Source: Odontesthes bonariensis
Taxonomy: Eukaryota > Chordata > Actinopteri > Atheriniformes > Atherinopsidae
Direction: 5' to 3'
Assembly: GCF_027942865.1 (NCBI RefSeq)
Contig: NC_134527.1
Coordinates: 3,250,476 to 3,314,475, forward strand
DNA length: 64,000 nucleotides
The position numbers and the translations under genes are program-made. Shown piece after piece: positions 3,001-34,101 of the stretch. Numbering within the stretch: position 1 is the first letter of the stretch; every line of letters starts with the position of its first letter. The notes below the pieces were generated by a model. It did not search any database, was not told the origin of the DNA, and saw only the letters and a list, made by a program, of their open reading frames with translations.

Positions 3001-3536
3001 CAGGCTCGGACCGGCTGTGTTCCAAACCGCATACTTCTCCTACTACTCCTACTAACTTTTTGAGTTAGTAAGCGAGTTTGAGTAAGAGAGAAGTTCCCGG
3101 ATGCATACTAGATTCTCCAAAATGTTGGGTATGCATCATGAGGTTACTACTCATACTCAAACTACCCAAGATGCAACGTAACGTGACGTCGCCGATCGAA
3201 ATGCATTGTGGGTAAACGCTCTGCATACTGCCCGATTGATGAGTATGTAGTATGCGGTATGCAGTATGCAGTATGTAGTATGCAGTATGCAGTATGCGGT
3301 ATGTAGTATGCAGTATAAAGTATGTAGTATGCAGTATGTAGTATGCAGTATGTAGTATGCAGTATGTAGTATGCAGTATGTAGTATGCGGTATGCAGTAT
3401 GTAGTATGCGGTATGCAGTATGTAGTATGCGGTATGCAGTATGCAGTATGTAGTATGCGGTATGTAGTATGCGGTATGTAGTATGCGGTATGTAGTATGC
3501 GGTATGTAGTATGCGGTATGTAGTATGCAGTATGCG

Positions 3537-3570
<34 letters not shown>

Positions 3571-6500: not shown

Positions 6501-9500
6501 AACAAAGGAAGTAAAGCTGTACCAGATGATCCGACAGGACACACTGGAGGAAACCGGTTCCATCTCGCAGCACAATGAACATCAGGTTCTTCCCTGAAGG
6601 AGACAAAGACGTGCGGATAAGTCCAAGCTCAACGCAAAAGTTAAAGTTAAAGGTGACTGGATTCCTCACCCTGTCTCCTGAGGCGATGGACCCATCCCAA
6701 CACTTTCACCCTCTGACCTCTCTTTGCCTCCAGATTAAGGATTTTAACCTGGAAAAAAAAATGCAGTGGTCAATTTTGAGTTTTTTGGGCCAGTTTACTC
6801 CTTCAATATGTGTTCTTTCAACCTGCTATAAAGAAAACGTTGAAAACTTAACTTTAATGTTTATTTTATTACATTTTGTTTAATGGCGGCAGTACGTTTC
6901 GCCCAAATTTACCAAAATGAAGGTTTCTATTTAAATCTTTAAATGCCGTTTTCTCAAAATCAGTTTTTTGTATTTTTCCAGTATCAATATCTCAGCCTAT
7001 GGAGCACCTACTAACACCAAACTTTCCAGTTATACACTCAGCAGTATTCTGAAGATATTTACAGAAGGATTTGTTGATAAATTATTCCTGGCCTGATTTA
7101 TGTGACATTATAATAAAAAAAATATGGCGAAAATCAATGTTTTTTAGGCTATGGGCAGTATATTTTGGTTTCCTAGGAAATGAAAGCAGATATCCTGAAA
7201 TCCCTCTAATTTTCTTTTCATTTTGTCTGTAAACAAAATGAAAAAAGAATTTTGCACCCGGCTTTATCATATGTTGAGATCTATCTTCCGGTAATATATG
7301 CAAATGTGCGCATATTTAATGAGGTAATGCATAAATTGCATAATTAAACATACAAATTTCTAAAACTTGCAATACATTTTTTTTCATATTTTTTACAAGT
7401 AATCAACTGAGGAAGTTTCACCGTGATATCTCTTATTTTAAAATATTACCCTATTCACCATGAGAATTGGTTCATATTTTCCATAAATTTAGCCGTTGTT
7501 GTTGTGTGGTTGCTAATTTCTTTTTTTTATGATTTAAACTTTTTTTATTTTTCAAACAATAACAATGAACAAACAATAATCCATATTATATTATTATACA
7601 ATATAAATTCAGTCCTTGACAAGTGACTTCAAGTGAATTATACAACATTACACACACACAAAATTAAATAGTAAAAGGAACGAATGTATACAAAACAAAA
7701 ATTAACAAATAAAAAAAAATATATATATATATAAATATAATCTTACACATAAGTATTAGTATATTAGTAAAAAATAAAATAAATAAAAAATAATAATAAT
7801 AAATACAAAATAAATACAAACAAAAGTGATGCCAAACGAAATCTGGACGTGAAGTTTCAAGAGTTCAGCTGTATAAGCCTATTCAATAAGTATTTGAGCT
7901 AATGCTAACGCTAATTTCTGTGATTAAAACCAACTATCAAAAGATCTTTAAAAGGTTTCTCTGGGAAGCTGCTGGTTCCCCTGATATAAGCTCTTCAAAC
8001 ATTAACCACAGCGTTCTCACAGCAGCTTAAAGGAAACCTACTTTTGTCGGGTTGAAACGGAGTGAAATACGTACAGTTTCAGGTTGAGGCAGGCTGGCGT
8101 CGTTCTTGATGACGATCTTCTTCGCCTCCTCCAGGTTCTTCTCTCTCCTTTCGCTGTCCTCGGCCTGCAACACGGGGCCAACATTTAGACACTTCCTGGT
8201 TTTATAGATGCTCCAGCTAAACGGCAACAGGCAGAGACAGAGCCTTCAGTTATCAGGCCCCTCTCTGTGGAACCAGCTGCCAGTTTGGGAGGCAGAGCCT
8301 TCAGTTATCAGGCCCCTCTCTGTGGAACCAGCTGCCAGTTTGGGAGGCAGAGCCTTCAGTTATCAGGCCCCTCTCTGTGGAATCAGCTGCTAGTTTGGGA
8401 GGCGGAGCCTTCAGTTATCAGGCCCCTCTCTGTGGAACCAGCTGCCAGTTTGGGAGGCAGAGCCTTCAGTTATCAGGCCCCTCTCTGTGGAACCAGCTGC
8501 CAGTTTGGGAGGCAGAGCCTTCAGTTATCAGGCCCCTCTCTGTGGAATCAGCTGCTAGTTTGGGAGGCGGAGCCTTCAGTTATCAGGCCCCTCTCTGTGG
8601 AACCAGCTGCCAGTTTGGGAGGCAGAGCCTTCAGTTATCAGTTCCCTCTCTGTGGGACCAGCTGCCAGTTTGGTGAGGCAGAGCCTTCAGTTATCAGGCC
8701 CCTCTCTGTGGAACCAGCTGCCAGTTTGGGAGGCAGAGCCTTCAGTTATCAGGCCCCTCTCTGTGGAACCAGCTGCCAGTTTGGGAGGCAGAGCCTTCAG
8801 TTATCAGGCCCCCCTCTGTGGAACCAGCTGCCAGTTTGGTGAGGCAGAGCCTTCAGTTATCAGGCCCCTCTCTGTGGAACCAGCTGCCAGTTTGGTGAGG
8901 CAGAGCCTTCAGTTATCAGGCCCCTCTCTGAGGAACCAGCTGCCAGTTTGGGAGGCAGAGCCTTCAGTTATCAGGCCCCTCTCTGTGGGACCAGCTGCCA
9001 GTTTGGTGAGGCAGAGCCTTCAGTTATCAGGCCCCTCTCTGAGGAACCAGCTGCCAGTTTGGGAGGCAGAGCCTTCAGTTATCAGTTCCCTCTCTGTGGG
9101 ACCAGCTGCCAGTTTGGTGAGGCAGAGCCTTCAGTTATCAGGCCCCTCTCTGAGGAACCAGCTGCCAGTTTGGGAGGCAGAGCCTTCAGTTATCAGGCCC
9201 CTCTCTGTGGGACCAGCTGCCAGTTTGGGAGGCAGAGCCTTCAGTTATCAGGCCCCTCTCTGTGGAACCAGCTGCCAGTTTGGGAGGCAGAGCCTTCAGT
9301 TATCAGGCCCCTCTCTGTGGAACCAGCTGCCAGTTTGGGAGGCAGAGCCTTCAGTTATCAGGCCCCTCTCTGTGGAACCAGCTGCCAGTTTGGCAGGCAG
9401 AGCTTTCAGTTATCGGGCCCCTCTCTGTGGAACCAGCTGCCAGTTTGGGAGGCAGAGCCTTCAGTTATCAGGCCCCTCTCTGTGGAACCAGCTGCCAGTT

Positions 9501-12500
9501 TGGGAGGCAGAGCCTTCAGTTATCAGGCCCCTCTCTGTGGAACCAGCTGCCAGTTTGGGTCTATATGAATACATTGGATTATTTTGAAAATAATTAAAAT
9601 TACAATGAAATAAACTCCAATTGGCTTGACTTGGACTTTATTATTTAAGTGCCTTGAGATGACATTTGTTGTGATTTGGCGCTTTATAAATAAAACTGAA
9701 TTAAATTGAAAATTTGCTGCAGTCTGACGCTGGAATCCTACGAGAAGCATGAAGAAATAAAACAAAAAAACTAGCAATCCTCGTCTTCATCTTGAGTTCC
9801 AGGTGTAACATGTGCGCACACTCTGAGATACACATGTGAAAACAGGGGTCGCACTCAACAGATTTTCGGTCACAGGGACTCTGGAGCTCAGCACAAACCT
9901 CTTTTTTGTCTTTGGAATCAGTCTTCATCTGTTCGCGGTTAAAAGCCTTCTTTGCGTTCTTCATCTGCGTCTTAGAGATCACCGCCCAACGCTGACAAGG
10001 AGCAAAAAAAAAGGGTCAATATTGACCTAAAATGTCTTTACTTACATACAAGGTTACATGTAATAAGAGATAATTATTATGTGTGTAAACAGATGCTGCA
10101 ACAGTGGCCAGAAACGTTTTTCAAGATGGGATAATAATCTGTACCGGGGAGAAAGAATACTAATGCCTGGGTAAAAAACAAAAAATTAACCAACCTCTCC
10201 CTCCTTCTGGGAATCTACATAGATGGTCGGGAACGGCTCCTTCCCAGTGAACAACAGAGCCTGTGAGGATTTAACAAACCAACTGGTGAAACAAGCAGCG
10301 ATAAAATCCCCTTATTCCTGCATAAAGAAGCATCTGGACACACAACTTGCCTTCAGAGGAGTTTTGAAGGGTTTCTGCTGGGAGCCATCGCCACCCTGGT
10401 CGCTGCCACATTTGTCGGACACGTACATCTCACCTGAGAAACAGAAGCCCAGTTAGACATAAATGTAGAGATTTTTAAATCCAGGTTAAAAACATTTCTT
10501 TTTTCATTTGTCTATGTATGAAATCTGCACAATATCTTTTAATTTTTGCTTGCTTTTAAATTAATTTAAATCATTTTATTTGTCTCTCTTTATATTCTTT
10601 TATGTATTTTTAATAGGGGTGGGACGATATGCTTTGGTCACGATTCGATTGTATCACGATTCTTGATAATTGCGATTCGATATAATCAGAACACTGGAAA
10701 AAAATCCCCCTCCAAAAATAAGTAAAAAAACCAACAAATACAAGATGTTTTTGCTTGAAATAAGCAAAAAAATCTGCCAATGGAACTAGTGAAAATCAGC
10801 TTGTCAAGATTTCTTGAAATAAGATGTGATATTTAGGACTTTTGAGATAAAAGTGATCTTGAAATTAGCTTAAAAACCTCTTCAAATGTAAAAAAAAAAG
10901 CTTGTTTCATATGAAATCCGACTCAAAACAATTTGTTTTCAAGACTTTTTCACTTAACAAGATATTCCAGATGTATTGTATTAAAACCAGTCCCTATATC
11001 TGGCTGAAATGGTACTTGTTACACAGTTGTGTCTTATATTAAGTGTAATGAGATATTTTGAGAAATGAGACAAATATACTTGGTAAGACTTTGATTTTTT
11101 TTCCAGTGTAATTGCAATTTTCTTCCTCCTTAAAAAATAAGTTGAATCATACACGTCGGAGAATGAATGTCATTCCCATAAACAATGCACGATGGCATTA
11201 TTTCAACCGAGACAAAAAGAGCTACTTAACATGTACAGCATTTTTTAAAGTTTACAGTTACAAAATGAATTGAAATGTCCACACGGCACAAATGTGGGCT
11301 AGTTTTAACATAACTTAATGTAATGAATTGATGAAGTTTTGAGTGGGCACGGATATGACATAATATAAATCGATTCAGGTAAAGAAATAAACTAAAAAAT
11401 AAATAAATCGATTTTTAAAATCATCCCATTAAAAAAATAAAATCGCGATATGTAGATGAATCGATTTTTTTCGCCCACTCTAATTTTTAATGCTTCTTCC
11501 ACTCCCTGCTGCAATGCTTTTATTTTATGTGAAGCACTTTGAACTGTTTTGTACATGAAATGTGCTACAGATAAATTTGATTAGACACAGCAAACACAAA
11601 GTTCGGGCTCATGACTCTTGGTTTTTGCTAAAATGAGAACGGTCACTGGGAAATTCCAGCCGTCGACACTCAAATTGAAACTCGATGCCAGGTCAGTGCG
11701 CTCCATCAGCCCAACGAAAGAACCCTAACCCTCCAGGGAACTTTTTACATTTCTGTTTCACTATGCCCAACACTTGTCTATTGTTCCAATGGTGCTCTGA
11801 TTGTGAGTGTAATTGCAGAGAAGTCATTGTGTGAAGCTCACAGTAGCAAGAAAAGTTAAAGTAAACTGCCCCGTGGAGCCACGAGTCGTCCAAGGACATC
11901 CTGCAGTCTGATGCAATAATGAAAGTGAATGGCCATTTCAAAGCTCATCTAAAGCAGAAACTCCAGCAACCGTTTTTTGTCAACTGACGCCCAAGTGTAT
12001 TGATGGGACACTAAGTTCAGTCTGAACTTTAACTAGACAGGTTTTAAAAGACTAAATTTAAAGGGATAGTTCGCCTCTTTTGACATGAAGCTGTATGACA
12101 TCCCATATCAGCAAGATTATTTATGAACATTTTCTTCCAAAAGGAAAGGAAAGGTCTGACTTTTTCCTGGAGAACCATTTTGTGATGCAAATGTATTACT
12201 CTTTTGAACCCATATTGTTTTGAGAAGCAAAACGCTTTATTTTTTAAACCCCAGCCAACTAGCCGGACTACCTTCATCAACGCCAAAACGAGGCTGGAAC
12301 TCTGCTCACAGGACGCAGCAGGGGGTAAGAAGATGTTCAGAAATGATGTTGCTGATATGGGATGTCACACAGCTTCATGTCAAAGGAGGCGAACTATCCC
12401 TTTAACTGTGTTAACTGACATTAAACCATGTGTATTTGGATGTTCTCCTATTTTCAAAGCTAAGGCGACACCCAATGTCACAGCCATCGTTTGAACCACA

Positions 12501-19109: not shown

Positions 19110-19491
19110 TCTTCAATCTGTGCGAGCCACGGCCTTCTACAGTGTAAAGTTGTACACAAAGTTCATTACACTAATTTGAGGCTATCTCGGATTTACTCCA
19201 ATATAACCGATTCCTGTAACAGGTGCAAACAATCCCCAGCCGACCATTAACATATGTTTTGGTTTCGCCCAGGCTCGCCACATTTTGGTCTAAAATCTTT
19301 AAAACTCTTAGCACAGCTTACAACACTACTATTTCTCCGGATCCCCTCTTGGCCCTATTTGGTTCCCCCCTGCAGCCTCTTGCATCTAAAGTTTGAGAGG
19401 AAGAATGGTTAGAATGGAAGGCTTCTCTGTTGCGCTGTACTGCTACGTTGCTACCTGTGAAATTGCTTCCAATAAAGAAAGTCTATTAAAA
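19110..19491 (+). mobile_element. 5'-truncated Tx1/L1-like retroposon
   Basis: Flanked by perfect 16-bp duplications AAAAAGTGCACGAATG (19094-19109 and 19492-19507). It ends AATAAAGAAAGTCTATTAAA plus an A-run, so it is inserted in plus orientation. The upstream part encodes VVHKVHYTNLRLSRIY and CNRCKQSPA, matching the C-terminal region of Tx1-clade L1 reverse transcriptases. Absent from the right arm, so it post-dates the duplication. Confidence 0.85.
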
Positions 19492-19814
19492 AAAAAGTGC
19501 ACGAATGAAAACCAAAGCTTGAATAAAAAGGACAGCACGGGAAACAGTACACATAAAAAAATGTAGGGATCGTCAGTCAGTCTGACATCCAGGGGCCCGT
19601 TGCACAAAAGTAGGATTTAGACATCCAGGATGAGTTACTTAGCCAGGTTCAAGGAATCCAAAACATGGCGCCCAGGCTTAGTTGGTTGCACAAAGGCCAA
19701 TCCAGGATGAGCAGACACGGATTCATTAAGCCAGGTGAAAGCGATCCTGGATAAGTGCTGCACACGGCTTTCTTAAATAGACCCCACGATCGATCATAGA
19801 TTCACTGATTCACC

Positions 19815-19976
19815 ATGGCAACAAGGGCGGCGTATTTCTCCCCAGCGGAGCAATAATTATTAATGGAAGCATATGAAGAGGTGACAGAGAAAATAAAACA
19901 AAAAGGAAATACTTCCACAGTTAAAAAACAAAGGGAGCAAGCGTGGCAAACCATTGCTGACCGCCTGAATGCGTAA
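19815..19976 (+). pseudogene. Harbinger Myb/SANT-like ORF, broken
   Basis: Starts MATRAAYFSPAEQ, then has an in-frame TAA, then continues LLMEAYEEVTEKIKQ and KKQREQAWQTIADRLNA, which resembles the trihelix-type DNA-binding protein of Harbinger elements. The stop codon and loss of downstream sequence make it non-functional. Confidence 0.75.
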
Positions 19977-20343
19977 GTAGTGCACAAATACACACTCACC
20001 ACTCCACTGAAATTATCACAATTAGGCAGTGTTCGAACTACGGGGGACTCGGGGGATCCGAGACCCCCTGAAACTGACACGAGACCCCCCCGAAAACATG
20101 ATTTGGGAAATATTGGCAAAATGTGATTTCCCCTGATGAGTTATGATTGCAGACGCGATGCGTGTGGAGGTGTGGAGCCTGTGTGCGTAATTGGCATAAA
20201 GCTGTGCTGTCCGCCGCGTATGATTCTGTATAGCTTCTCATGTGTTTGAGTCAAGCGCAAGCAAGCAACGCCAGCAAATGCCATTACAGTTACAATTACA
20301 ATGTTAACATTCAGCGTAAGATACTCATTGCATCGTATTACAG

Positions 20344-21131
20344 GTTTCCCCAATGTCATTGGTGCAGTGGACTGCACACACATCAAAATAAAACCCCCCT
20401 CAGGTGGCCATGAGGGGGATTTTGTGAACAGGAAAAACTTCCACAGCATCAATGTACAGGTGAACATGACTTTTGATAAAGTTATTTAATGAACACTGTA
20501 CATTGCCTGTGATGTGCATTAATTGGTTTAACATCTTATCATTTCAGATGGTCTGCAATGCTGACTATTTGATCAGTAATGTTGTGGCAAAGTGGCCCGG
20601 CTCGGTCCACGACTCCCGAGTGTTTCGGAACTCAGAGATCTATCAGCGCCTATCACAAGGTGAGCCACAGAACCTCTATTGATAACCACTTTTAACATCA
20701 TGGCTGTGTTAAGAATGTCACTACTTATGAGGTTGTGATGGTAACATTTTGTATTCACAGGTGAATTCCTGGGTGTATTGCTGGGTGACAGAGGGTACGC
20801 CTGCCAGCCTTTTCTGCTCACTCCATTTGCAGACCCTCTGGAGGCACAACTGGCATACAACCATGCCCATGCCAGAACAAGGGCCCGGATAGAAATGACA
20901 TTTGGCCTACTGAAGGCACGCTTTCAGTGTCTGACCCACCTGAGAGTCAGCCCAGACAGGGCATGTGATATCACTGTGGCCTGTGCTGTCCTCCACAATG
21001 TGGCCTGCCTGAGAAAGGAGAGGGCCCCCAGAGTGCCAGCTCTCATAGACTGGGACATTCCTGCCATCTTCCCGGATGACGACTGTGGTCGGCTGGTCAG
21101 AGACCAATATGTGTTAAATTATTTTAATTAA
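20344..21131 (+). pseudogene. HARBI1-like DDE transposase, N-terminus missing
   Basis: Three exons join in frame: 20344-20459, 20548-20659 and 20761-21131. All junctions have GT-AG borders. The catalytic residues are present in order: D in IGAVDCTH, D in PGSVHDSRVF and E in RARIEMTFGLLKARF. The C-terminus is complete to a stop at 21131, but the upstream coding part expected in HARBI1-type proteins is not found in the element. It is therefore probably inactive, although the catalytic core is unbroken. Confidence 0.85.
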
Positions 21132-21735
21132 TATGCATGTTGATTTAAGTTGGGCCTGCAATGGCAGAGGAATTTTTGTTAGGTTTTTGTGCTGTATAGG
21201 CAAGGCAATTTTATTTGTATTACCATTTTTACAAACAGTTTGTCTCAAACTGCATGCTTTGATTCTGTGCTTTTTGTCTTGTAGAGCACTGTGTGACTTC
21301 AGTTTTGAAAGGAGCTGATGGTTTACTTGCTTTGATTCATCCTTGTTCAATAAAGGAACATCATGGTACTCTCTAATGTGCATTTATATTTATATGGTGA
21401 TGTACTTTATGTGTAGTCTGTGGGAAACTAAATTATCTAGTGGTTCATCTAAAATCATCAGTTATCTAAAATGATTTCAATTAATGATCACAAATGTTTC
21501 AATAATGATAGTGGGTATAGTTAAATGTTTTAACAATATGTTCTAGGCAGTGGAATAAATATTGGCTTCCATTTGTGGCGACCGCTGACTGAGATAAGGA
21601 ATGAGATTAAATAGATCCTGGAACTTAGCCTGGTCTGGAGCAGGCTAGCTTCACAGAATAAATCTCCATGGTAACTTACGTCTGAACGTATCCCACTTTT
21701 GTGCAACGGGCCCCTGCTCTGACTGCTCACACATT

Positions 21736-24700
21736 TTAGTCATCTCCTGTTTTCTTTGGTGTAGAAGAGAACTCAGCGGTGGCATCATATGAATACAAAC
21801 CAACTCCAGGACAGAGCGGCTGAGTGAAGGTGGTCTGCACTCTGTGGAGCAGAGTCATGGTGTCGGAGACGCTGTAGAAGGACAGAACACCTGCTCTGTG
21901 GTCCAGGTACACTCCTATTCTGGAGGACAGAGCACCTGAGATGGAGGTTCTGATGTTGTTATGACTGAATTCATAATCACCATCTTTGAAACACTGTAAT
22001 GCCCAAGACTTATCATTGTTTCCAAAGATACTTTCTCTGCCTGTTCTGCTTATGTTCTTGTATGCGGCTGCTATGAAAACACTTCCTGACCACTTCACCT
22101 CCCAGTAACAGCGTCCAGTGAAGCTTTTTCTACACAAAACCTGGTACCAGTCAAGGAATTTGTCTGGGTGAGAAAGTACTTCACTATTATTGTAATGAAA
22201 TACTACTTTAAAGCCATTCTGAACCCTGATATGCTTGCTTGCAGTGCGTGCATCTAACTCGATGGGACACGCATATTTTAGAAATTCCTCTCTGGTCTCG
22301 GGTTCTGCTCGTGGAAGCAGAACGTTCCCTTCAGGTACAGTCGGGGAGGTTTTGGTCCATTCCTCGCTGAGAATGCCCTGCAGGTGACCCGTGGCCTCGG
22401 AAACGGCCGCCTTGGCGTCTTCAGCGAACCTCAGAGAAGCAGCGCCGGTGTCGGGGGACTCTGGCGCCCGGCCGGGACGCGACAGCAGCCGGAAGCCGTG
22501 CAGTAAGTGCACGTGGTCCTCTGTGTGCGAGAGCCGCTCCAGCTCCACGTTCCTCCTCCTCAGCTCGGTGATCTCCTGCTCCAGCCGCTTTCTGGCCTCA
22601 TCCACACCGGCCACCTCAGTCTGCTGACGGGATCTGATCCGCTGCCTCACGTCTGTGAGGATCTGCTCACTGCGCCCCACGGCCTCGTCGGCCGACTGAT
22701 TGATGGCCTCCACCTCCCGCCGCAGCGTCTTCACACCCGTCTCGCTCTCCCGGATTCTCTGCTGGATTCTCGCCCGGCTCGCCTGTAGGGGTGGGACGAT
22801 ATGCTCTGGTCACGATTCGATATGTATCACGATTCTTGAGAATTGCGATTCGATATAATCAGTAAATGCAATTTTCTTCCTCCTTAAAAAAACAAACAAG
22901 TTGAATCGTACACTTCTAGAATGAATGTCGTTCCCACAAACGATGCACATCAGTCTGTTTCAGTCAGTCCAGCAGCTGACATTTATTTCAACTCAAACAA
23001 AAAGACCTACTTAAAGCTGCAGTCGGCAAGTTTTCAAAATTGCGAGTCTAAAGTCGGAAAATTCGAACTGATACAACTTTCAGGTCCCTCCCCCAACCTC
23101 TAACAAGCTCTGAATCGCCCCCCAAACCCCTCCCCCTCTGTGGACGAGGTTGTGCACGTGAGTTCACACCAGTGTGAGCGCACGCTCAGCAGCGTGTGCA
23201 CAAGCTGTGATTGACAGGTAGGATTCCTCCACCCTAACTTGATTGGTTAAAAACAGCCGGGCGCGCTCGGTTTTTGCAAGCATGATTACAGGCTTTAGAG
23301 GGAGCTACAGATTTCGTTATTTTTCCTAAACAGCCTATTTAATATTCTACTTCCAGAATCCCATAACAGTTCAAGCTAATATGACTAAAAAATAGTTGCC
23401 AACTGCCGCTTTAAAGGTGGGGTAGGGGTTCTTTTTCTGGAGCATTTTTTTATAGCTTGGGTGTCAGCCGAACTTAGCCCCGCCCATAAAAATTTTGGTC
23501 GGGAAGTTCCGTCTGGCTCTGCTCAGTTGGGAAATCATTATGCCCGACCTGGAATTGGACATTATCGACTACGTCACTAAAGAGCGCTTGGTTTGAATCC
23601 GTTTGAAACAAACATGGCTGCCGCTGGAGAGCTAGGGCGTGTAGATTCTGCCATCGAGTCTGTTCTACAGGATCTCCACATTGCATTCGTTTTGAAAGAC
23701 GAACAGAGGAACGCGATAAAGGCTTTTATCGATAGAAAAGATGTTTTTGCCGTCCTTCCTACAACATGTGTGTGTCGCTTAATCTACGTCACATACTATG
23801 TTGCTCTGATTGGTTGTAGGTCTATCCAATTGAGCGAAGAGGCATTTTTTCTCCCGGTTCGGTTGAAACACGCCCCATACTCAAATCTCTATCCAGCGGT
23901 ATCAGACTCACATTCTGACTAGAATCGTGAGTATGACGTAGTCAGGCAAATTTTTTTACATATTGCTTGAAATACTCTTCACACCCCCATTGCAACCAAT
24001 TAATTAAAAGTTTTGACACAAAAATGAAAAGTTTTAGTGGCCTCTAGGACGTACAATCCAGGAAAAACTGTATCCAATCATACTGAACGGACCATTAACG
24101 ATGATTGGATTCTGATGCGTCTATCAAACTGCAATCTGCTCCTCCCTCCCCCTCCATCCCCCTGTGCGCGTACTAGGCTTGTCCCGATCCGATATTTGGA
24201 TCGGCCGCCGATATTTGCAAAAAAATGCGTATCGGCCGGCATGGAAAAATGCCGATCCAGACTCCCGATCCAGTTTTTTTTCCAGCACACCTTCAACACG
24301 GTAAAAATGTCAGCTGTGTGGGATTATTTTACCCTAAAAGACGAAACAGATGAAGAGGTGGAGTGCAAAGTGTGGAGGAGATTGGGGAGTAGAAGTCATT
24401 TTTGTTTTTAAATAGTTCACAATAATATTTGCACTGATTTTTTTTTAAAAGCCTTGGTTTACACTTGTTCAAGAGCAGAGTACTGATGCTGAGTTAATAG
24501 ACTATTTTCTACTCAGGTTGTTTGTGTGATTTGCTTTTTTAATACAGTTGACAGTATTATTTGCACTTTTTACTGTTAGCTGATGCCATTTCTGTTATTT
24601 ATAATTTTGTCAATTTTGTGTTTATCCCTGAATAAACAGGAAAACCTTTTTCAACATGAGTCTGACAACTAAGTTAGTAGGCTAAATAATTTTAAACTTT

Positions 24701-25985
24701 AATACATGCTTGGATAGGCCGGTATCGGTATCGGAAGTGCAAAAACCTGGATCGGGACATCCCTAGCGCGTACCCTGCTCCGTGAACGAATTACGCGTCC
24801 AGAAGCTTGGCAGGAAGCTAAACTAGAGCCAGCTTGGCTAGCACCTAGCATTATTAAACTTATAGTTAGCATATACTAAATACTAAATACGGCAACGATC
24901 GATGCTTGCTGTCAGAACAGCGCTCATGCACCTTCGTGCTCGTGCGCGTTCATGTACTCTAGAGGCGTGCCTTCGGGGGGAAAGTGAAGAAAAGGGTTGG
25001 GACTTTTGACCTGTGTATTTTCAAAATGCAGCTTCGCTGGACTCAAAATCCAGGATCTCCTACCCTACCTTTAACATGTACAGCATTTTTTAAAGTTCAC
25101 AGTTACAAAATGAATTAAAATGTCCACACAGCACAAATGTGGGCTAGTTTTAACATAACTTAATGTAATGAATTGATGGAGTTTTTCTGGACACGGATAT
25201 GACGTAATAAAATCAATTCGGGGGAGAAAAATCGATTTTTAGAATCATCCCATTAAAAATCGCGATATGTACATGAATGGATTTTTCCGCCCACCCCTAC
25301 TCGCCTGGAGCTCCCGCTGCGTCTCGCTCACTTGCGCCGCAGCAGAGACGGTGTCGTGGCCTCGGTGCTCGTCCATGGAGCACAGGTAGCAGATGCACGT
25401 CTGGTCGGTGCGGCAGAAGATCTTCATCACCTCGTTGTGGTGCGAGCAGACGCTCTCCTGGAGCGTGGCGGACGGCTCCACCAGCTTGTGCTTCTTCAGC
25501 GCAGCCACGTGGTAGTGAGGCTGCAGGTGCTGCTGGCAGTAGGACACCAGGCACAGCAGGCAGGATTTGACGGCTCTCACCTTCTCTTCGGTGCACAAAT
25601 CGCAGGCCACATCTGCGGGTTCCGCAGCTGGAGCAGCATCTGGAGCAGCATCTGGATCAGCAGCTGGAGCAGCAGCTGGAGCAGCAGCTGGAGCAGCAGC
25701 TGGAGCAGCAGCTGGAGTAGCAGCTGGAGCAGCAGCTGGAGCAGCCTGCAGTCCTGCCTTCTTCTGTTCCTCCACCAGCTCTGCCAGCACCGTGTTGCTC
25801 ACCAGGACCGGCCTCGGGGTGAAGGCCTGTCTGCACTGCGGACAGTCGGGGCTTTGCTTCCGATCCTCCTCACCCCAGTACCTGCTAATACAGCCCAGGC
25901 AGTAGCTGTGTCCACAGGGAACAGTTACTGGATCCTTCATTAGGTCCAAACAGATTGAACAGCAGAGTTTTTCTTGTTGCGCCAT
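21736..25985 (-). CDS. TRIM16/TRIM25-like E3 ubiquitin ligase, left copy
   Basis: Predicted exons are 25305-25985 (227 codons) and 21736-22782 (349 codons), 575 residues if the hAT at 22786-25299 is spliced out as a GC-AG intron (donor at 25303-25304, acceptor at 22783-22784). The order is RING (CSICLDLMKDP, CGHSYCLGC, CPQC), an Ala-Pro linker, two B-boxes (CDLCTEEKVRAVKSCLLC; CSHHNEVMKIFCRTDQTCICYLC), a coiled coil, and PRY-SPRY (CYWEV, GVYLDHRAGVLSFYSV). The start chosen is MAQQEKLC, shared with the other copy; an ATG two codons upstream exists only here. Fish members are usually single-exon and many act in antiviral or immune signalling. Without splicing, the frame adds a short hAT-encoded tail and stops at 25245, leaving RING and B-boxes only. 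Both exons are fully open. Confidence 0.85.
23015..23410. mobile_element. TTAA element 1 nested in the hAT
   Basis: Ends AGCTGCAGTCGGCAAG and GTTGCCAACTGCCGCT, with TTAA on both sides (23011-23014 and 23411-23414). 396 bp, non-coding. The right TTAA is shared with the next element. Confidence 0.88.
23613..23922 (+). pseudogene. RecQ-helicase-like N-terminal fragment in a transposon
   Basis: Encodes MAAAGELGRVDSAIESVLQD and KDEQRNAIKAFIDRKDVFAV then LPTT, resembling the lead-in to the Walker A box of RecQ-type helicases. The expected P-T-G-x-G-K-S loop is lost after LPT and the frame soon ends. The match is by eye only. It may be a captured host gene piece or part of the parent autonomous element. 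Confidence 0.55.
24174..24765 (+). mobile_element. hAT (ZBED-type) remnant
   Basis: Ends TAGGCTTGTCCCGATCCG and GGATCGGGACATCCCTA, with perfect 8-bp duplications GCGCGTAC (24166-24173 and 24766-24773). It encodes only MSAVWDYFTLKDETDEEVEC, the start of a BED-finger transposase, before a deletion. Confidence 0.9.
25623..25757 (-). repeat. Coding Ala-Pro minisatellite in TRIM, left copy
   Basis: A 12-bp unit (GCAGCTGGAGCA on the plus strand) encodes repeating AAPA between RING and first B-box, with ATP, ADP and DAAP variants. The length and variant order differ from the right copy (about 31821-31980), so it has changed since the duplication without breaking the frame. Confidence 0.88.
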
Positions 25986-26117
25986 TTCCATGTTGGTGAT
26001 AGTGAGAGAGGAAAGAACTGGTGGGGGCACGGGCTGAGGGGGCCGGACCATTTCAAAGAAGGAAGTGGAGGGAGGGGTTATAAGAGTTTGGTTTATTCCA
26101 GGAAATAAAGGCATTTT

Positions 26118-26607
26118 TTTTTCTTAATACAACTTTATTTTGCTTTACAAGATACAAAAACAGTGCAAAAACATGACAAGTATCATTAACAATAAATGAA
26201 GAACAAATAAGCATACCAAAATAAATACACACATAAGTAGTTTAAATAATAAATGAAGAGAGAGATAATATACTAGGGGACATGAACAATGAGGATTACA
26301 CTGAGTTAAAGATTTCAAAGTGGGAGACTAGATTTATAGTTTTGATAGCTTTCTTGTTATTAGAGGAGGAAATTGACTTGAGATACATCTGGAGTTCTAT
26401 CATGAAAGCACAAAAATTGGGTTTCACTTTGGCAAAATTTACATTTGTGGATGTAATACTTAGCAAGAATTAAAATGAGATTAATTTAAAAAATATTCTT
26501 TTTCAGTGGGAGCATCACTCTTTATAAAAACAAAAATGACATTTTGCAGAAGGAGCTCTAAATCACAGCATATATTATCTAAAATAAATCTACAAATATC
26601 TTGCCAC
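26118..26607 (-). mobile_element. Tx1/L1-like LINE 3' fragment (1)
   Basis: Flanked by AGGCATTTT duplications (26109-26117 and 26608-26616), with the poly-T of a minus-strand insertion at its left. The minus strand encodes short pieces such as YYIHKCKFCQSE, like the C-terminus of Tx1-clade L1 elements. The right arm of the duplication lacks it. Confidence 0.8.
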
Positions 26608-26624
26608 AGGCATTTTGAAGCAGA

Positions 26625-27140
26625 TTTTTTTTTTTAAATATACTTTATTTAAACAGAAATAAATATACAACAAACAAACGAATGAAGTATACAACATAAC
26701 ATGACAGTTATGTAAACAAACAACCAGGGGTGTTAGATGAAAACATGCAAAGATGTACATATGGAAATATTGTCCTTAGAGCCTTTTCATTAGTAGAGTC
26801 TGTTATTGATTTAAAATATTGTTCTATATCTTTAATAAAATGGGGAAAACATGGCGTTTTATGAGCCAATTTCCATTTATGAATAGAAAATTTAGCAAAG
26901 AAAATAAGCAAGTTTATTATAAAAAAAAAACATTTAGCATCCTTTCTGGGGAATCTATAGAAACAAAATAAAACATTTTCCCAGCATAAGGAAAAATTCC
27001 TTAAAATATGGTCATTAATAAACCTGCTAAACTCCATCCAAAACCTTCGTGTGAAAGGGGCGGAGCCAAAATAGATGCGTCACAGTTTCTGGAAGGCCAT
27101 TACAGAAACTGCAATTAGTATTTATGTCTCTTTTAAATTT
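26625..27140 (-). mobile_element. Tx1/L1-like LINE 3' fragment (2)
   Basis: Poly-T at about 26625-26636 marks the 3' end of a minus-strand copy. The minus strand encodes LCWENVLFCFYRFPRKDAK and IINLLIFFAKFSIHKWKL, typical of the C-terminal domain of Tx1-clade L1 ORF2. It is 5'-truncated and lies at the outer edge of the left duplication arm. Confidence 0.8.
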
Positions 27141-27149
27141 TACCATATA

Positions 27150-29243
27150 GTGCTTCCTCCCCTTGAGCTGTCACCTTAACGTGGTGGGGGGGGTTTGCGT
27201 GCCCCAATGAGTCTGACCCTGGTAGGGTCACCCATGGCAAACAGATCCTAGATGAGGGACCAGACAAAGAACAGCTCACAAGAACCCCTATGATGATTAA
27301 AGAAAATGGACACCGTGTTCCCTTGCCCGGACGCGGGTCAACGGGGGCTCCCCCTGGAGCCAGGCCCGCCGGCGAGCGCCTGGTGGCCAGGTCTGTGCCC
27401 GTGGGGCTCGGTCGGGCACAGCCCGAAGAAATGACACGGGTCCCCCTTCCGACAGGCTCACCACCTGTGGGAGGGGCCATGGGAGTCGGGTGCTTTGTGA
27501 GCTTGGCGGCAGCCGAAGGCAGGGACCTTGGCGGTCTGATCCTCGGCTACTGAAGCAGGCTCTTGGGACGTGGAACATCACCTCTCTGCTGGGGAAGGAG
27601 CCTGAGCTGGTGCGCGAGGCTGAGCGGTTCCGGCTAGATATAGTCGGACTCACCTCGACGCATGGCTTGGGCTCCGGAACCAGCCTCCTCGAGAGGGGTT
27701 GGACTCTCTTCCACTCTGTAGTTGCCCGCGGTGAGAGGTGTAGAGCAGGTGTGGGCATACTTATTGCCCCCCGGCTGTGCGCCTGTACATTGGGGGTCAC
27801 CCCGGTAGACGAGAGGGTAGCCTCCCTCCGCCTTAGGGTGGGGGGACGGGTCCTGACTGTTGTTTGTGCCTATGCGCCGAACGGCAGTTCAGAGCACCCA
27901 CCCTTTTTGGAGTCCCTGGAGGAGGCACTGGAGAGTGCTCCTCCGGGATACTCCCTCGTCCTGCTGGGGGACTTCAATGCTCACGTGGGCAATGACAGTG
28001 AGACCTGGAGGGGCGTGATTGGGAGGAACGGCCCCCCCGATCTGAATCAGAGTGGTGTTTTGTTGTTGGACTTCTGTGCTCGTCACGGACTGTCCATAAC
28101 GAACACCATGTTCAGGCATAAGGGTGTCCATATGTGCACTTGGCACCAGGACACCCTAGGTCGCAGCTCGATGATCGACTTTGTGGTTGTATCGTCGGAC
28201 TTGCGGCCGTATGTCCTGGACACTCGGGTGAAGAGAGGGGCGGAGCTCTCAACTGATCACCACCTGGTGGTGAGTTGGCTCCGCTGGTGGGGGAGGAAGC
28301 CGGTCAGACCTGGCAGGCCCAAACGTACTGTGAGGGTCTGTTGGGAACGGCTGGCGGAATCCCCTGTAAGGAGGAGTTTCAACTCCCACCTCCGGCAGAG
28401 CTTCAGCCATGTCCCGGGGGAGGTGGGGGACATTGAGCCCGAATGGGCCATGTTCCGTGCCTCCATTGTTGAGGCGGCCGACCGGAGCTGTGGCCGTAAG
28501 GTGGTCGGTGCCTGTCGTGGCGGTAACCCCCGAACCCGCTGGTGGACCCCAGTGGTGAGGGAAGCCGTCAAGCTGAAGAAGGAGTCCTATCGGGCCTTTT
28601 TGGCCAGTGGGACTCTGGAAGCAGCTGATGGGTACCGACAGGCCAAGCGGAACGCGGCCTCGGTGGTTGCTAAGGCAAAAACTCGGGCTTGGGGGGAGTT
28701 CGGGGAGGCCATGGAGAACGATTTCCGGACGGCCTCGAAGAGATTCTGGTCCACCATCCGGCGGCTCAGGGGGGGAAAGTGGTGCACCGTCAACACCGTG
28801 TATGGTGAGGGCGGGGCTCTGCTGACTTCAACTAGGGACGTCGTGAGTCGGTGGAGGGAGTACTTCGAGGGCCTCCTCAATCCTACCGACACGCCTTCCG
28901 ATGAGGAAGCAGAGTTGGGGAGCTCGGACGTGGGGCCTCCCATTTCTGGGGCTGAGGTGGTTAAAAAACTCCTCAGTGGCAGGGCCCCGGGGGTGGATGA
29001 CGTCCGTCCTGAGTTCCTCAAGGCTCTGGATGTTGTGGGGCTGTCTTGGTTGACACGCCTCTGCAGCATCGCGTGGACATCGGGGGCAGTGCCTCTGGAC
29101 TGGCAGATCGGGGTGGTGGTGCCCCTCTTTAAAAAGGGGGCTGGAGGAAGTGGCCGGGGACAGGGACGTCTGGGCTTCTCTGCTTAGGCTGCTGCCCTGC
29201 GACCCGATCCCCGGACAAGCGGAAGATAATGGATGGATGGATG
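27150..29243 (+). mobile_element. RTE/Rex-like non-LTR retrotransposon, internally deleted
   Basis: One open frame (about 27553-29187) starts with an AP-endonuclease ([39 protein letters not shown]) and reaches the first reverse-transcriptase blocks ([30 protein letters not shown]). It then jumps straight to the normal 3' end (GGAGGAAGTGGCCGGGGACA, then ATGG repeats). The catalytic YADD region is missing, so the copy cannot move by itself. The ATGG tail favours the RTE group; family name uncertain. Confidence 0.85.
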
Positions 29244-29588
29244 GAGTTTGGGGGAAACAGTTTGGGGAAACAGTTTGGGGGGAAACAGTTTGGGGGAAAC
29301 AGTTTGGGGGAAACAGTTTGGGGGGAAACAGTTTGGGGAAACAGTTTGGGGAAACAGTTTGGGGGGAAACAGTTTGGAGGGAAACAGTTTGGGGAAACAG
29401 TTTGGGGGGAAACAGTTTGGGGAAACAGTTTGGGGAAACAGTTTGGGGGGAAACAGTTTGGGGGGAAACAGTTTGGGGAAACAGTTTGGGGGAAACAGTT
29501 TGGGGGGAAACAGTTTGGGGAAACAGTTTGGGGAAACAGTTTGGGGGAAACAGTTTGGGGGGAAACAGTTTGGGGAAACAGTTTGGGG
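29244..29588. repeat. 14-16-bp minisatellite born in Tc1 transposase sequence
   Basis: About 23 units of GAAACAGTTTGGGG with one or two extra G. The array runs without a break into Tc1 transposase sequence (GGATGGCCCCTTCCTGTTCC). In ordinary Tc1 elements that sequence is preceded by one copy of GGAACAGTTTGGGGA, so the unit is an expanded piece of transposase gene. Open frames inside are artefacts. Confidence 0.9.
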
Positions 29589-29884
29589 ATGGCCCCTTCC
29601 TGTTCCAACATGGCTGCTGCACCAGTTCACAAAGCAAGCTCCATAAAGACATGGCCTTCTGTCCAACATAATCAGTGTCTGAGCTCACAGATACTGGAAA
29701 AACGGTCAAAAACTCCCATAAACACTCCTAAAGCTTGTGCAAAGCGTGGCCAGAAGAGTTGAAGCCGTTATAGCTGCAAAGGGTGGGCCGACGTCATATT
29801 AAACCCTCTGGATTAAGAATGGGATGTTACTGAAGTTCATATGCATGTAAAGGCAGATGAGCCAATACTTTTGGTAATATAGTG
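29589..29884 (+). pseudogene. Tc1-like transposon 3' remnant
   Basis: Encodes pieces of the Tc1 transposase C-terminus (PVHKASSIKTW, later EKRSKTPIN). A deletion after AAGACATGG removes the catalytic Asp/Glu region, and frameshifts follow. It ends CCAATACTTTTGGTAATATA, the typical 3' terminal repeat. The 5' end is lost. Confidence 0.85.
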
Positions 29885-30338
29885 CATGTATCAAATTACA
29901 CAGACTCCACGTCTGTCATAGTTTAATATCCTTTGCTTACAAAACCTGATTTCATGCTTTCACATACAAAAACATGAACATGTCAGGTCCGCCATCTTTA
30001 AAACAAGAGCAAAACACACCAAATGACTTCTGTGTCTACCTTGTGATACATTTTCCTTGTAGCTAGCTCTTCATTTCAGTCAAACCCACATGCAAATTAG
30101 CTGTGAAATCCCACCCAGCTAGTAGACACAAATGGTTCCTCCAATCTTCTATGTTCAACATAGAAAAAAAACCCGGCTTGAGTGCTGCTTTCTGCCCTCT
30201 ACCTATGTGTGCATTCAATCAGATAAACACATGTATGATGTAGTTATATCATTCCATTCCAGACTCTTTAAAGCAGGACCAGCAGGGGATGCACTTCTCG
30301 GCATAACACCAGTGCTGTGTGAAGCTTTTTCCCTGTAC
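29885..30338. other. Intergenic, nothing recognised
   Basis: No coding similarity, terminal repeats or tandem repeats seen. Confidence 0.5.
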
Positions 30339-30840
30339 AGAGACCGTTTCTCAATACTCAAGTACGCAAGTCCGTACTCGTGTGCTTACAAGTATGGACT
30401 TGTCAGAAGTACGGACTTCTGAGCCCACAAGCACACAAGTACGCTCATTGTGCATTTGGAACGGAAGCGTCATCATTTCTCGTGCCGCACAAGCTGTCTG
30501 AAGTCTACACAAGTCACCACAGAAGCAAACTCGATAAAATGGGCGGAGCAAGAACACATCCGGGAATGTGGAGCGTACTTGTCTGGATGCGTACTTTGAA
30601 TTGGAACAGTACTTGGTCCTTCGGTGATGACGTTTCAGAAGTACACGAGTACGCAAGTACAGACAAGTACGCATATTGAGAAACGGCCCTGGTACAGAGT
30701 CTATACTTCAGACAGCATGCTATCCCAGAAAGCAGTGTGGCACGAGCGATGATGACGCTTCCGTTCCAAATGCACAATGAGCGTACTTGTGTGCTCAGAA
30801 GTCCGTACTTCTGAAAAGTCCATACTTGTATCAGGGTGCT
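30339..30840. mobile_element. MITE with CCGTTTCTCAATA ends, plus partial inverted copy
   Basis: 30340-30691 has inverted ends (GACCGTTTCTCAATA and TATTGAGAAACGGCC) with internal repeats of AAGTACGCAAGT. 30692-30840 repeats its left part in reverse orientation (CACAATGAGCGTACTTGTGT against ACAAGTACGCTCATTGTGCA). Superfamily unknown. Confidence 0.7.
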
Positions 30841-31420
30841 TGCTCTTTTTCCAAATTAAAATTCCAGACTTTTTCCAGACTTTTTTAAAACTGATACTAT
30901 TTTCCCCCCAAGACCTTAACTTTATGTACTTGTAACTTGTGTGCCTACTTCATTGGTTGAGATTGTACCAACTGTGTTTATTAGAAATGTTCATTTTTAT
31001 AGGCTAGTATTCAATGAACAAATGCATTATTCACAGTAAATTATGCTTTTACTGATGAAAACGTTTCAAAACATGAAAATCACAAGTACATGAATTTCAC
31101 ATCAAACAAGTGTCACAAAAACTATCTATAAAAAAAATGAATGGATGGATGAATGTATGTAGAATTCAGTCTCTTCACTCACATCTCATCCCATTAGGCT
31201 AATACAGTACGTGACCAGTTAGTAAAATTATAATTTTATAGCCTACCTTCCTATTTCTCATTTCACAATGCCTTTGAGCATACTGTAACATTCTACCATA
31301 CATTTATTTTCCATACTTTATTAAGACTTTCACACAAAATTCAAGACTTTTCAGGGTCTGGAAAACAGTTCTTCAAAATTCCATACTTATTAAGACTTTC
31401 AGAAACGGCCAGGCTCTGAT
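30841..31420. other. Intergenic with possible old repeat
   Basis: Contains recurring AATTCCAGACTTTTTCCAGA-like and TTAAGACTTTCA phrases suggesting an old DNA transposon, but no ends were fixed. It leads directly into the right arm of the duplication. Confidence 0.4.
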
Positions 31421-31578
31421 CTGCTTCAAAATGCCTTTACTTCCTGGAATAAACCAAACTCTTATAACCCCTCCCTCCACTTCCTTCTTTGAAATGGTCC
31501 GGCCCCCTCAGCCCGTGTGATTCCTGCTGAGTCATGCCCCAACCAGTTCTTTCCTCTCTCACTATCACCAACACGGAA

Positions 31579-34101
31579 ATGGCGCAACAAGAAAAACTCT
31601 GCTGTTCAATCTGTTTGGACCTAATGAAGGATCCAGTAACTATTCCCTGTGGACACAGCTACTGCCTGGGCTGTATTAGCAGGTACTGGGGTGAGGAGGA
31701 TCGGAAGCAAAGCCCCGACTGTCCGCAGTGCAGACAGGCCTTCACCCCGAGGCCGGTCCTGGTTAGGAGCACGGTGCTGGCAGAGCTGGTGGAGGAACAG
31801 AAGAAGGCAGGACTGCAGGCTGCTCCAGCTGCTGCTCCAGCTGCTGCTCCAGCTGCTGCTCCAGCTGCTGCTCCAGCTGCTGCTCCAGCTGCTGCTCCAG
31901 CTGCTGCTCCAGCTGCTGATCCAGCTGCTGATCCAGCTGCTGATCCAGCTGCTGATCCAGCTGCTGATCCAGCTGCTGCAGAACCCGCAGATGTGGCCTG
32001 CGATTTCTGCACCGAAGGAAAGGTGAGAGCCGTCAAATCCTGCCTGCTGTGCCTGGTGTCCTACTGCCAGCAGCACCTGCAGCCTCACTACCACGTGGCT
32101 GCGCTGAAGAAGCACAAGCTGGTGGAGCCGTCCGCCACGCTCCAGGAGAGCGTCTGCTCGCGCCACAACGAGGTGATGAAGATCTTCTGCCGCACCGACC
32201 AGACGTGCATCTGCTACCTGTGCTCCATGGACGAGCACCGAGGCCACGACACCGTCTCTGCTGCGGCGCAAGTGAGCGAGACGCAGCGGGAGCTCCAGGC
32301 GAGTAGGGGTGGGCGGAAAAATCCATTCATGTACATATCGCGATTTTTAATGGGATGATTTTAAAAATCGATTTTTCTCCCCCGAATCGATTATATTACG
32401 TCATATCCATGTCCAGAAAAACTTCATCAATTCATTACATTAAGTTATGTTAAAGCTAGCCCACATTTGTGCTGTGTGGACATTTTAATTAATTTTGTAA
32501 CTGTGAACTTTAAAAAATGCTGTACATGTTAAAGGGACAGTTCGCCTCTTTTGACATGAAGCTGTATAACATCCCATATCAGCAACATCATTTATGAACA
32601 TCTTCTTACCCCCCGCTGCGTCCTGTGAGCAGAGTTCCAGCCTCGTTTTGGTGTGGATGAAGGTAGTCCGGCTAGTTGGCTGGGGTTTAAAAAATAAAGC
32701 CTTTTGTTTCTCAGAACAATATGCGTTCAACAGAGTAATACATTTGCATCACAAAATGGTTCTCCAGGAAAAAGTCAGACCTCACAATCGCTTGGAACTA
32801 TTTTCTCTGTTCATAAATGATGCTGCTGATATGGGATGTCATACAGCTTTATGTCAAAAGGCGAACTATCCCTTTAAGTAGCTCTTTTTGTCTGAGTTGA
32901 AATAAATGTCAGCTGCTGGACTGACTGAAACGGACTGATGTGCATCGTTTCTGGGAACGACATTCATTCTCGAAGTGTACGATTCAACTTGTTTGTTTTT
33001 TTTTAAGGAGGAAGAAAATTGCATTTACTGATACAAATCGAATCGTGACCGAAGCATATCGTCCCACCCCTACAGGCGAGCCGGGCGAGAATCCAGCAGA
33101 GAATCCGGGAGAGCGAGACGGGTGTGGAGACGCTGCGGCGGGAGGTGGAGGCCATCAACCAGTCGGCCGACGAGATCCTCACAGACGTGAGGCAGCGGAT
33201 CAGATCCCGTCAGCAGACTGAGGTGGCCGGTGTGGATGAGGCCAGAAAGCGGCTGGAGCAGGAGATCACCGAGCTGAGGAGGAGGAACGTGGAGCTGGAG
33301 CGGCTCTCGCAGACAGAGGACCACGTGCACTTACTGCACGGCTTCCGGCTGCTGTCGCGTCCCGGCCGGGCGCCAGAGTCCCCCGACACCGGCGCTGCTT
33401 CTCTGAGGTTCGCTGAAGACGCCAAGGCGGCCGTTTCCGAGGCCACGGGTCACCTGCAGGGCATTCTCAGCGAGGAATGGACCAAAACCTCCCTGACTGT
33501 ACCTGAAGGGAACGTTCTGCTTCCAAAAGCAGAACCCGAGACCAGAGAGGAATTTCTAAAATATGCGTGTCCCATCGAGTTAGATGCACGCACTGCACAC
33601 ACGTATATCAGGATTCAGGATGGCTTTAAAGTAGTATGGTGTCGCTATAAACGTGAAGGTCCTGATCACCCAGACCAATTCCTTGACTGGTGTCAGGTTT
33701 TGTGTCGAAAAAGCTTCGCTGGACGCTGTTACTGGGAGGTGGAGTGGTCAGAAAGTGTTTTCATAGCAGCCGCATACAATAGCATAAGCACAACAGGCAG
33801 AGAAAGTGTCTTTGGAAACAATGATAAGTCTTGGGCATTACAGTGTTTCAATGATGGTGGTTATGAATTCAGACATAACAACATCAGAACCTCCATCTCA
33901 GGTCCTCAGTCCTCCAGAATAGGAGTGTACCTGGACCACAGAGCAGGTGTTCTGTCCTTCTACAGCGTCTCCGACACCATGACTCTGCTCCACAGAGTGC
34001 AGACCACCTTCACTCAGCCGCTCTGTCCTGGAGTTGGTTTGTATCTATATAAATCCACCGCTGAGTTCTCTTCTACACCAAAGAAAACAGGAGATGACTA
34101 A
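31579..34101 (+). CDS. TRIM16/TRIM25-like E3 ubiquitin ligase, right copy
   Basis: Predicted exons 31579-32298 (240 codons) and 33076-34101 (342 codons with stop) give 581 residues if the hAT at 32304-33072 is removed as a GC-AG intron (donor gc at 32299-32300, acceptor ag at 33074-33075). Domains are RING (CSICLDLMKDPV to CPQCRQAF), a long Ala-Pro/Ala-Asp linker, B-boxes (CDFCTEGKVRAVKSCLLC; CSRHNEVMKIFCRTDQTCICYLC), a coiled coil and PRY-SPRY. It lacks seven codons of the left copy's coiled coil (AVGRSEQ). RING and B-boxes are nearly identical to the left copy, while the first SPRY loops differ strongly (FHYNNSEVLSHPDK against WCRYKREGPDHPDQ). Unspliced, the protein stops at 32358 after a transposon-encoded tail. 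I cannot prove expression. Confidence 0.85.
31821..31980 (+). repeat. Coding Ala-Pro/Ala-Asp minisatellite in TRIM, right copy
   Basis: 12-bp units GCTGCTCCAGCT (AAPA) followed by GCTGATCCAGCT (ADPA) units in the RING to B-box linker. It has a run of five Asp variants where the left copy has a different mix. Confidence 0.88.
32304..33072 (+). mobile_element. hAT element forming the putative intron, right copy
   Basis: TAGGGGTGGGCGGAAAAATC to CATATCGTCCCACCCCTA, with duplications CAGGCGAG at 32296-32303 and 33073-33080. The donor is CAG|GCGAGT, its final T being the first base of the element. The acceptor is CCCACCCCTACAG|G. A TTAA MITE (32533-32873) sits inside, at the site occupied by other elements in the left copy. 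Confidence 0.93.
32533..32873. mobile_element. TTAA MITE nested in the right hAT
   Basis: AGGGACAGTTCGCCTC to GGCGAACTATCCCT, flanked by TTAA (32529-32532 and 32874-32877). Same family as 12062-12401. Confidence 0.92.

Follow-up and report, generated by a model that had tools for sequence, protein, structure and literature searches.

A hAT transposon as a probable GC-AG intron in an inverted pair of TRIM25-like genes of Odontesthes bonariensis

The stretch of Odontesthes bonariensis DNA analysed here (64,000 nucleotides of contig NC_134527.1, positions 3,250,476 to 3,314,475; hereafter the window, whose numbering is used throughout) carries two TRIM25-like genes lying inverted relative to each other: a right-hand copy on the plus strand, R (31534-34101), and a left-hand copy on the minus strand, L (26114-21736). 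Both are interrupted at an identical codon boundary by one non-autonomous hAT element flanked by perfect duplications of CAGGCGAG. The insertion is derived, precedes the duplication of the gene and leaves both frames open on either side of it. With a probability that we put at roughly 60%, judging from the letters of the two loci, the element is removed as a GC-AG intron whose main donor is the GC site at its border, the spliceosome most likely excising the element with one duplication and so returning the exact ancestral frame.

Anatomy and age of the insertion

An element of ~0.5 kb entered a TRIM25-like gene at CAGGCGAG, within what was then its only coding exon. Under the proposed mechanism, the 5' splice site would come mostly from the duplicated target (CAG|GCGAG), completed by the element's first T, while the acceptor would take its AG from the other copy of the duplication and its pyrimidine tract (CCCACCCCTA) from the terminal repeat. 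An inverted copy of the gene arose afterwards, and the same TTAA within the two introns finally received different TTAA-targeting insertions, which made them longer.

The corresponding splice consensus is present at the borders of the element in both copies, with CAG|GCGAGTAGGGG (CAG|GCGAGT) as donor, CCCACCCCTACAG|G as acceptor and a branch-point-like GTGAC 28 nt upstream of the acceptor junction. The terminal inverted repeats, TAGGGGTGGG and CCCACCCCTA, are short (the perfect part spans ~10 nt) and symmetrical, so that CCCACCCCTA results from either orientation, as the sequence-only reading had maintained of the pyrimidine tract. The duplications, donor and acceptor were re-derived from the sequence in both copies and bear out its coordinates, and its exon lengths of 720+1026 nt (R) and 681+1047 nt (L), open from ATG to stop, are those counted from the MAQQ start, which in R is the second ATG (31579). 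Without splicing, the frames terminate within the element at 32358 (R) and 25245 (L), again as it had stated. Since any loss of the element together with one duplication restores the frame, the informative part is the splice consensus itself. Had an 8-bp target been duplicated at a random TRIM coding position, a precise-excision donor of equal or better quality would arise at 1.7% of positions across 22 paralogs (630 of 37066), at 44 of 1780 in R and at 41 of 1846 in L, placing the chance of an equally good splice scar at 1.7-2.5% of coding positions.

Joining the exons at CAG|GCGAGC yields open frames of 596 aa (R, stop 34101) and 618 aa (L, stop 21736). The joined R protein matches the Pfam profiles RING, B-box, TRIM_CC, PRY and SPRY in the order of TRIM proteins of the PRY-SPRY class, the TRIM_CC match (residues 248-386) spans the join at 255/256, and TRIM25 is its top sequence match in the PDB. 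The two copies also differ by 39 nt, in frame, in the length of a 12-bp (alanine/proline) repeat that separates the RING from the B-box (31819-31979 in R, 25624-25745 in L), and the coiled coil of R is without 21 nt (AVGRSEQ, one heptad's length) that are present in L. Some 2.1 kb is inserted 23 nt past the stop of L (19400-21735), after which homology to R resumes for 87 nt.

That the site was formerly uninterrupted is read from the TRIM genes of the same genome. A search with R exon 2 gave 399 candidates, the best 40 of which were scored and comprise 28 further TRIM loci. In 27 of these, tblastn matches run across the insertion point in one frame; the remaining locus, L035, has no match in that region. 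The 22 paralogs with open frames >450 aa were aligned and have no indel at the insertion point, each showing ELE|GSRQQIQQ in place of the ELQ|ASRARIQQ of R and L. The alignment left out six loci (L020, L021, L026, L032, L035 and L037) whose open frames are 450 aa or shorter; five of them, all but L035, still match across the site. The uninterrupted state is thus ancestral in this family and the insertion derived, as had been claimed for this codon, and removal at the proposed points therefore restores the ancestral length. An older intron at this codon was accordingly rejected, none being seen in 27 of the 28 loci (best 40 of 399 candidates scored). Among medaka finTRIM genes, for comparison, 47 of 55 are reported with a one-exon frame (PMC2657112).

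The age of the insertion relative to the gene duplication was read from other members of the family, sampled with a 227-nt query (466 first-look candidates, best 40 scored, 30 fetched, 28 of them besides R and L). Thirteen of the 28 measure 468-507 bp and have 8-bp duplications (12 perfect, one with a mismatch); of the other 15, four have an altered start and 11 had no duplication in the range searched. Compared with the majority consensus of the 13 over ~422 sites, the elements of R and L share nine changes, with six found in R only, eight in L only and one other. The common changes place the insertion before the gene duplication, although some of them may mark a subfamily, and R and L go back to a single insertion that was then duplicated, rather than to two separate ones. 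The TTAA-flanked insertions nested in the two elements differ in sequence, apparently arrived independently after the duplication, and lengthened the introns to their present 777 nt (R) and 2522 nt (L). Another, fragmented copy of the hAT family lies elsewhere in the window (10614-11478), as do long tandem arrays at 4596-6281, 8234-9559, 3242-4081 and 29245-29588 (units of 19, 55, 14 and 28 bp, respectively), some of them open in several frames.

Table 1. Features of the TRIM25-like gene pair and its hAT insertions (window positions)
Feature	Copy	Positions	Strand	Basis or remark
Exon 1: RING, alanine-rich repeat, B-box, coiled-coil start	R	31534..32298	+	joined frame, Pfam
Rival donor AAG|GTGAGA, in frame, 276 nt 5' of GC donor	R	32020..32028	+	score 10.7; U1 -9.6
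Rival donor CAA|GTGAGC, in frame, 27 nt 5' of GC donor	R	32269..32277	+	score 7.6; U1 -4.6
Target duplication CAGGCGAG, left of element	R	32296..32303	+	sequence reading
Proposed GC-AG intron, 777 nt	R	32299..33075	+	sites read; splicing inferred
hAT element, 769 bp, terminal repeats TAGGGGTGGG/CCCACCCCTA	R	32304..33072	+	
TTAA-flanked element nested in hAT, 345 nt	R	32533..32877	+	
Target duplication CAGGCGAG, right of element, source of acceptor AG	R	33073..33080	+	sequence reading
Exon 2: coiled coil, PRY, SPRY, stop	R	33076..34101	+	joined frame, Pfam
Exon 1	L	25305..26114	-	joined frame
Target duplication CAGGCGAG, donor side	L	25300..25307	-	sequence reading
Proposed GC-AG intron, 2522 nt	L	22783..25304	-	sites read; splicing inferred
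hAT element, 2514 bp	L	22786..25299	-	
TTAA-flanked insertions nested in hAT, 2060 nt, same TTAA as R	L	23011..25070	-	
Target duplication CAGGCGAG, acceptor side	L	22778..22785	-	sequence reading
Exon 2, through stop	L	21736..22782	-	joined frame

State of the exons and choice of the donor

The GC-AG intron proposed by the sequence-only reading draws its strength from an insertion inherited by both copies, uninterrupted relatives and length-restoring sites. Telling against it are the lack of clear constraint over much of the protein, the point at which L begins to resemble R, and the quality of GT donors nearby.

The alternative that survives best, although we consider it unlikely, is that both genes are broken, either yielding a RING/B-box fragment, 274 aa long in R and 289 aa in L, that ends in the element, or forming a young pseudogene pair whose exon 2 is open for lack of time. 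The in-frame stops indeed come shortly past the donor. It had been argued that a dead gene should by now contain stops or frameshifts; the frames are open as described, but the missing stops weigh less than was claimed, zero stops being expected with a probability of 0.11-0.25 even without constraint. Between R and L, exon 2 shows 47 substitutions and a single 21-nt indel, none of which creates a stop or shifts the frame. Forty-two of the substitutions are replacements and five are silent, where ~32 and 13 would be expected (P for five or fewer silent changes without constraint, 0.001-0.010; dN/dS 2.6, bootstrap 1.3-9.4), and replacements in the SPRY domain (~36/391) exceed changes in the intron (15/424; P 0.0012). 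This excess of replacements speaks against broken genes, as does the absence of frame-breaking indels from exon 2, whose probability without constraint is ~0.008 on the basis of just two intron indels, and so does the rarity with which a splice-ready scar would be left by chance. A replacement-only cluster of 28 codons, on the other hand, holds 21 of the 41 SPRY differences. Outside it the SPRY domain diverges at about the intron rate (20/417 against 15/424; P 0.39), as broken genes would. In exon 1 outside the repeat constraint is not clear (dN/dS 1.3, with a wide interval), and in the rest of the protein replacements (16/858) are lower than in the intron (15/424), not clearly so (P 0.08). 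Moreover, the R-like homology of L starts only 3 bases 5' of its ATG, adjoining an AATAAA and a run of A (26114-26260), so that L may lack a promoter. Gene conversion as the origin of the SPRY differences was rejected, since besides each other neither R exon 2 nor the L SPRY has a match >79% among the 40 candidates scored for each, a search that a donor lost or missing from the assembly would escape.

Splicing to the hAT acceptor from one donor or another is likely, and the GC site is the donor that we favor. That the main donor is instead a GT in exon 1 strikes us as doubtful, somewhat more so than the loss of both genes. The sites in question, all in frame, are CAA|GTGAGC (with a loss of 9 residues), GAG|GTGATG (42) and AAG|GTGAGA (92, including the B-box), and they have matrix scores of 7.6, 6.3 and 10.7, respectively, against 5.85 for the GC donor. 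In all, exon 1 of R has four GT donors with a higher score than the GC donor, three of them in frame; that of L has five, of which four are in frame, and four further ones lie inside the L intron. These make the sequence-only reading weaker than was claimed. Neither CAA|GTGAGC nor AAG|GTGAGA is present at those codons in the 22 paralogs. U1 pairing ranks the sites otherwise: CAA|GTGAGC (-4.6 kcal/mol) and GAG|GTGATG (-6.8) pair more weakly than the GC donor (-9.4), AAG|GTGAGA pairs well and equals it (-9.6), and an out-of-frame GGG|GTGAGG is slightly above it (-9.8). The longer losses from exon 1 would cost R and L some or all of a B-box that both retain intact, and no donor other than the GC site preserves the ancestral length.

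Finally, transposons are reported to be removed from worm mRNAs through their inverted repeats and independently of splice sites, a process for which our literature search found no paper; the terminal repeats of the present element would permit something similar, but with just ~10 nt of perfect repeat and ends that already match the splice consensus we regard this as very improbable.

Further introns from the same family

The sequence-only reading had called the element introner-like, which would imply introns of the same origin in many genes, and this is not supported. The sequence AGGYRAGTAGGGGTGGG occurs at two sites in the whole genome, R and L. For CCCACCCCTACAGG there are 15 matches, namely R, L and 13 others, eight of which were fetched. 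The three fetched from C3 were rejected as introns of the family, as none matches the hAT consensus and they are near-identical to one another, one of them (L071) with a reverse-transcriptase match. At L075, too, nothing matches the consensus, and L076-L078 have only short matches (<=29 nt). L074 (C15) is a copy of the family at CAGGTTAC, with a CAGGT target and a donor scoring below the GC donor of R and L; it was dismissed as a second intron because the CAGG strand has no open frame >34 codons at the site, the opposite strand having one of 91 codons, on which no family search was made. Introns from this hAT family thus amount to one event in the patterns searched, which left five of the 13 CCCACCCCTACAGG sites unfetched, all among the eight on C3, and did not extend to other splice-ready targets. 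Two of the C3 loci, L071 and L072 (G000 C3, 33.73 and 33.94 Mb), lie in opposite orientation 208 kb apart, bear reverse-transcriptase sequence and are identical over 2014 bp; the eight sites with their 14-mer, three of them fetched, fall within 2.1 Mb.

A bolder proposal, to which we attach little credence, is that a vertebrate hAT family whose symmetrical ends each offer a pyrimidine tract acts as a latent introner, any coding insertion at an 8-bp target with AG|GY providing a ready intron in either orientation, and that the TRIM pair is the first instance caught, with the spliced product later allowing adaptive diversification of both SPRY domains.

Relation to known transposon-derived introns

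A Ds element of maize, likewise a hAT transposon, is reported (Giroux 1994) to have created a novel intron inside an exon of a laboratory plant allele; the TRIM insertion is apparently fixed and older, and resides in an animal gene pair.

Transposon-made introns are already known, fish included, and what is special here is the combination of a hAT family, a GC donor and a duplicated pair. Closest is intron 3 of slc26a2 in notothenioids, which a 2025 paper derives from the element NTE-1, with gt-ag within direct and inverted repeats and a second element that lengthened the intron (PMC12357937). The two cases share a DNA element in a fish coding exon, splice dinucleotides in the repeats and later lengthening by a second element. 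By the same account, the slc26a2 intron has gt-ag borders, 4-nt direct repeats and tgt/aca ends, and is found in five species, where RNA-seq coverage served to check the exon structures (PMC12357937), whereas the proposed TRIM intron has a GC donor and 8-bp duplications, and occurs in a gene present in two copies of one genome. The general route is set out in a review by Yenerall and Zhou, in which insertion into AGGT lets the duplicated target supply both splice sites for a precise gain; its Table 1 gives transposon-made cases from Oryza, Drosophila, Oikopleura and Zea, and no vertebrate for this route (PMC3443670). The duplicated target would serve likewise here, the target being AGGC and the donor therefore GC. 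Introners, too, take their splice sites from the ends of transposons or from duplications but make many introns, and the survey of Gozashti (2022) found no evidence of introner gain in vertebrates (PMC9860276); the TRIM case has just one event. No earlier report of a hAT-derived TRIM intron was found in our search of open-licence papers.

Vertebrate introns are rarely found at a stage when the element that made them, the target duplication and uninterrupted relatives are all still readable. The TRIM pair would be a clean, young example of a transposon-derived intron. The duplicated pair further provides a natural replicate, in which a single new intron was lengthened in two different ways. If splicing occurs as proposed, a fast-evolving immune family would have gained a GC-AG intron of hAT origin, and the pair would offer a test of how a newborn intron settles on its donor with better-scoring GT sites nearby.

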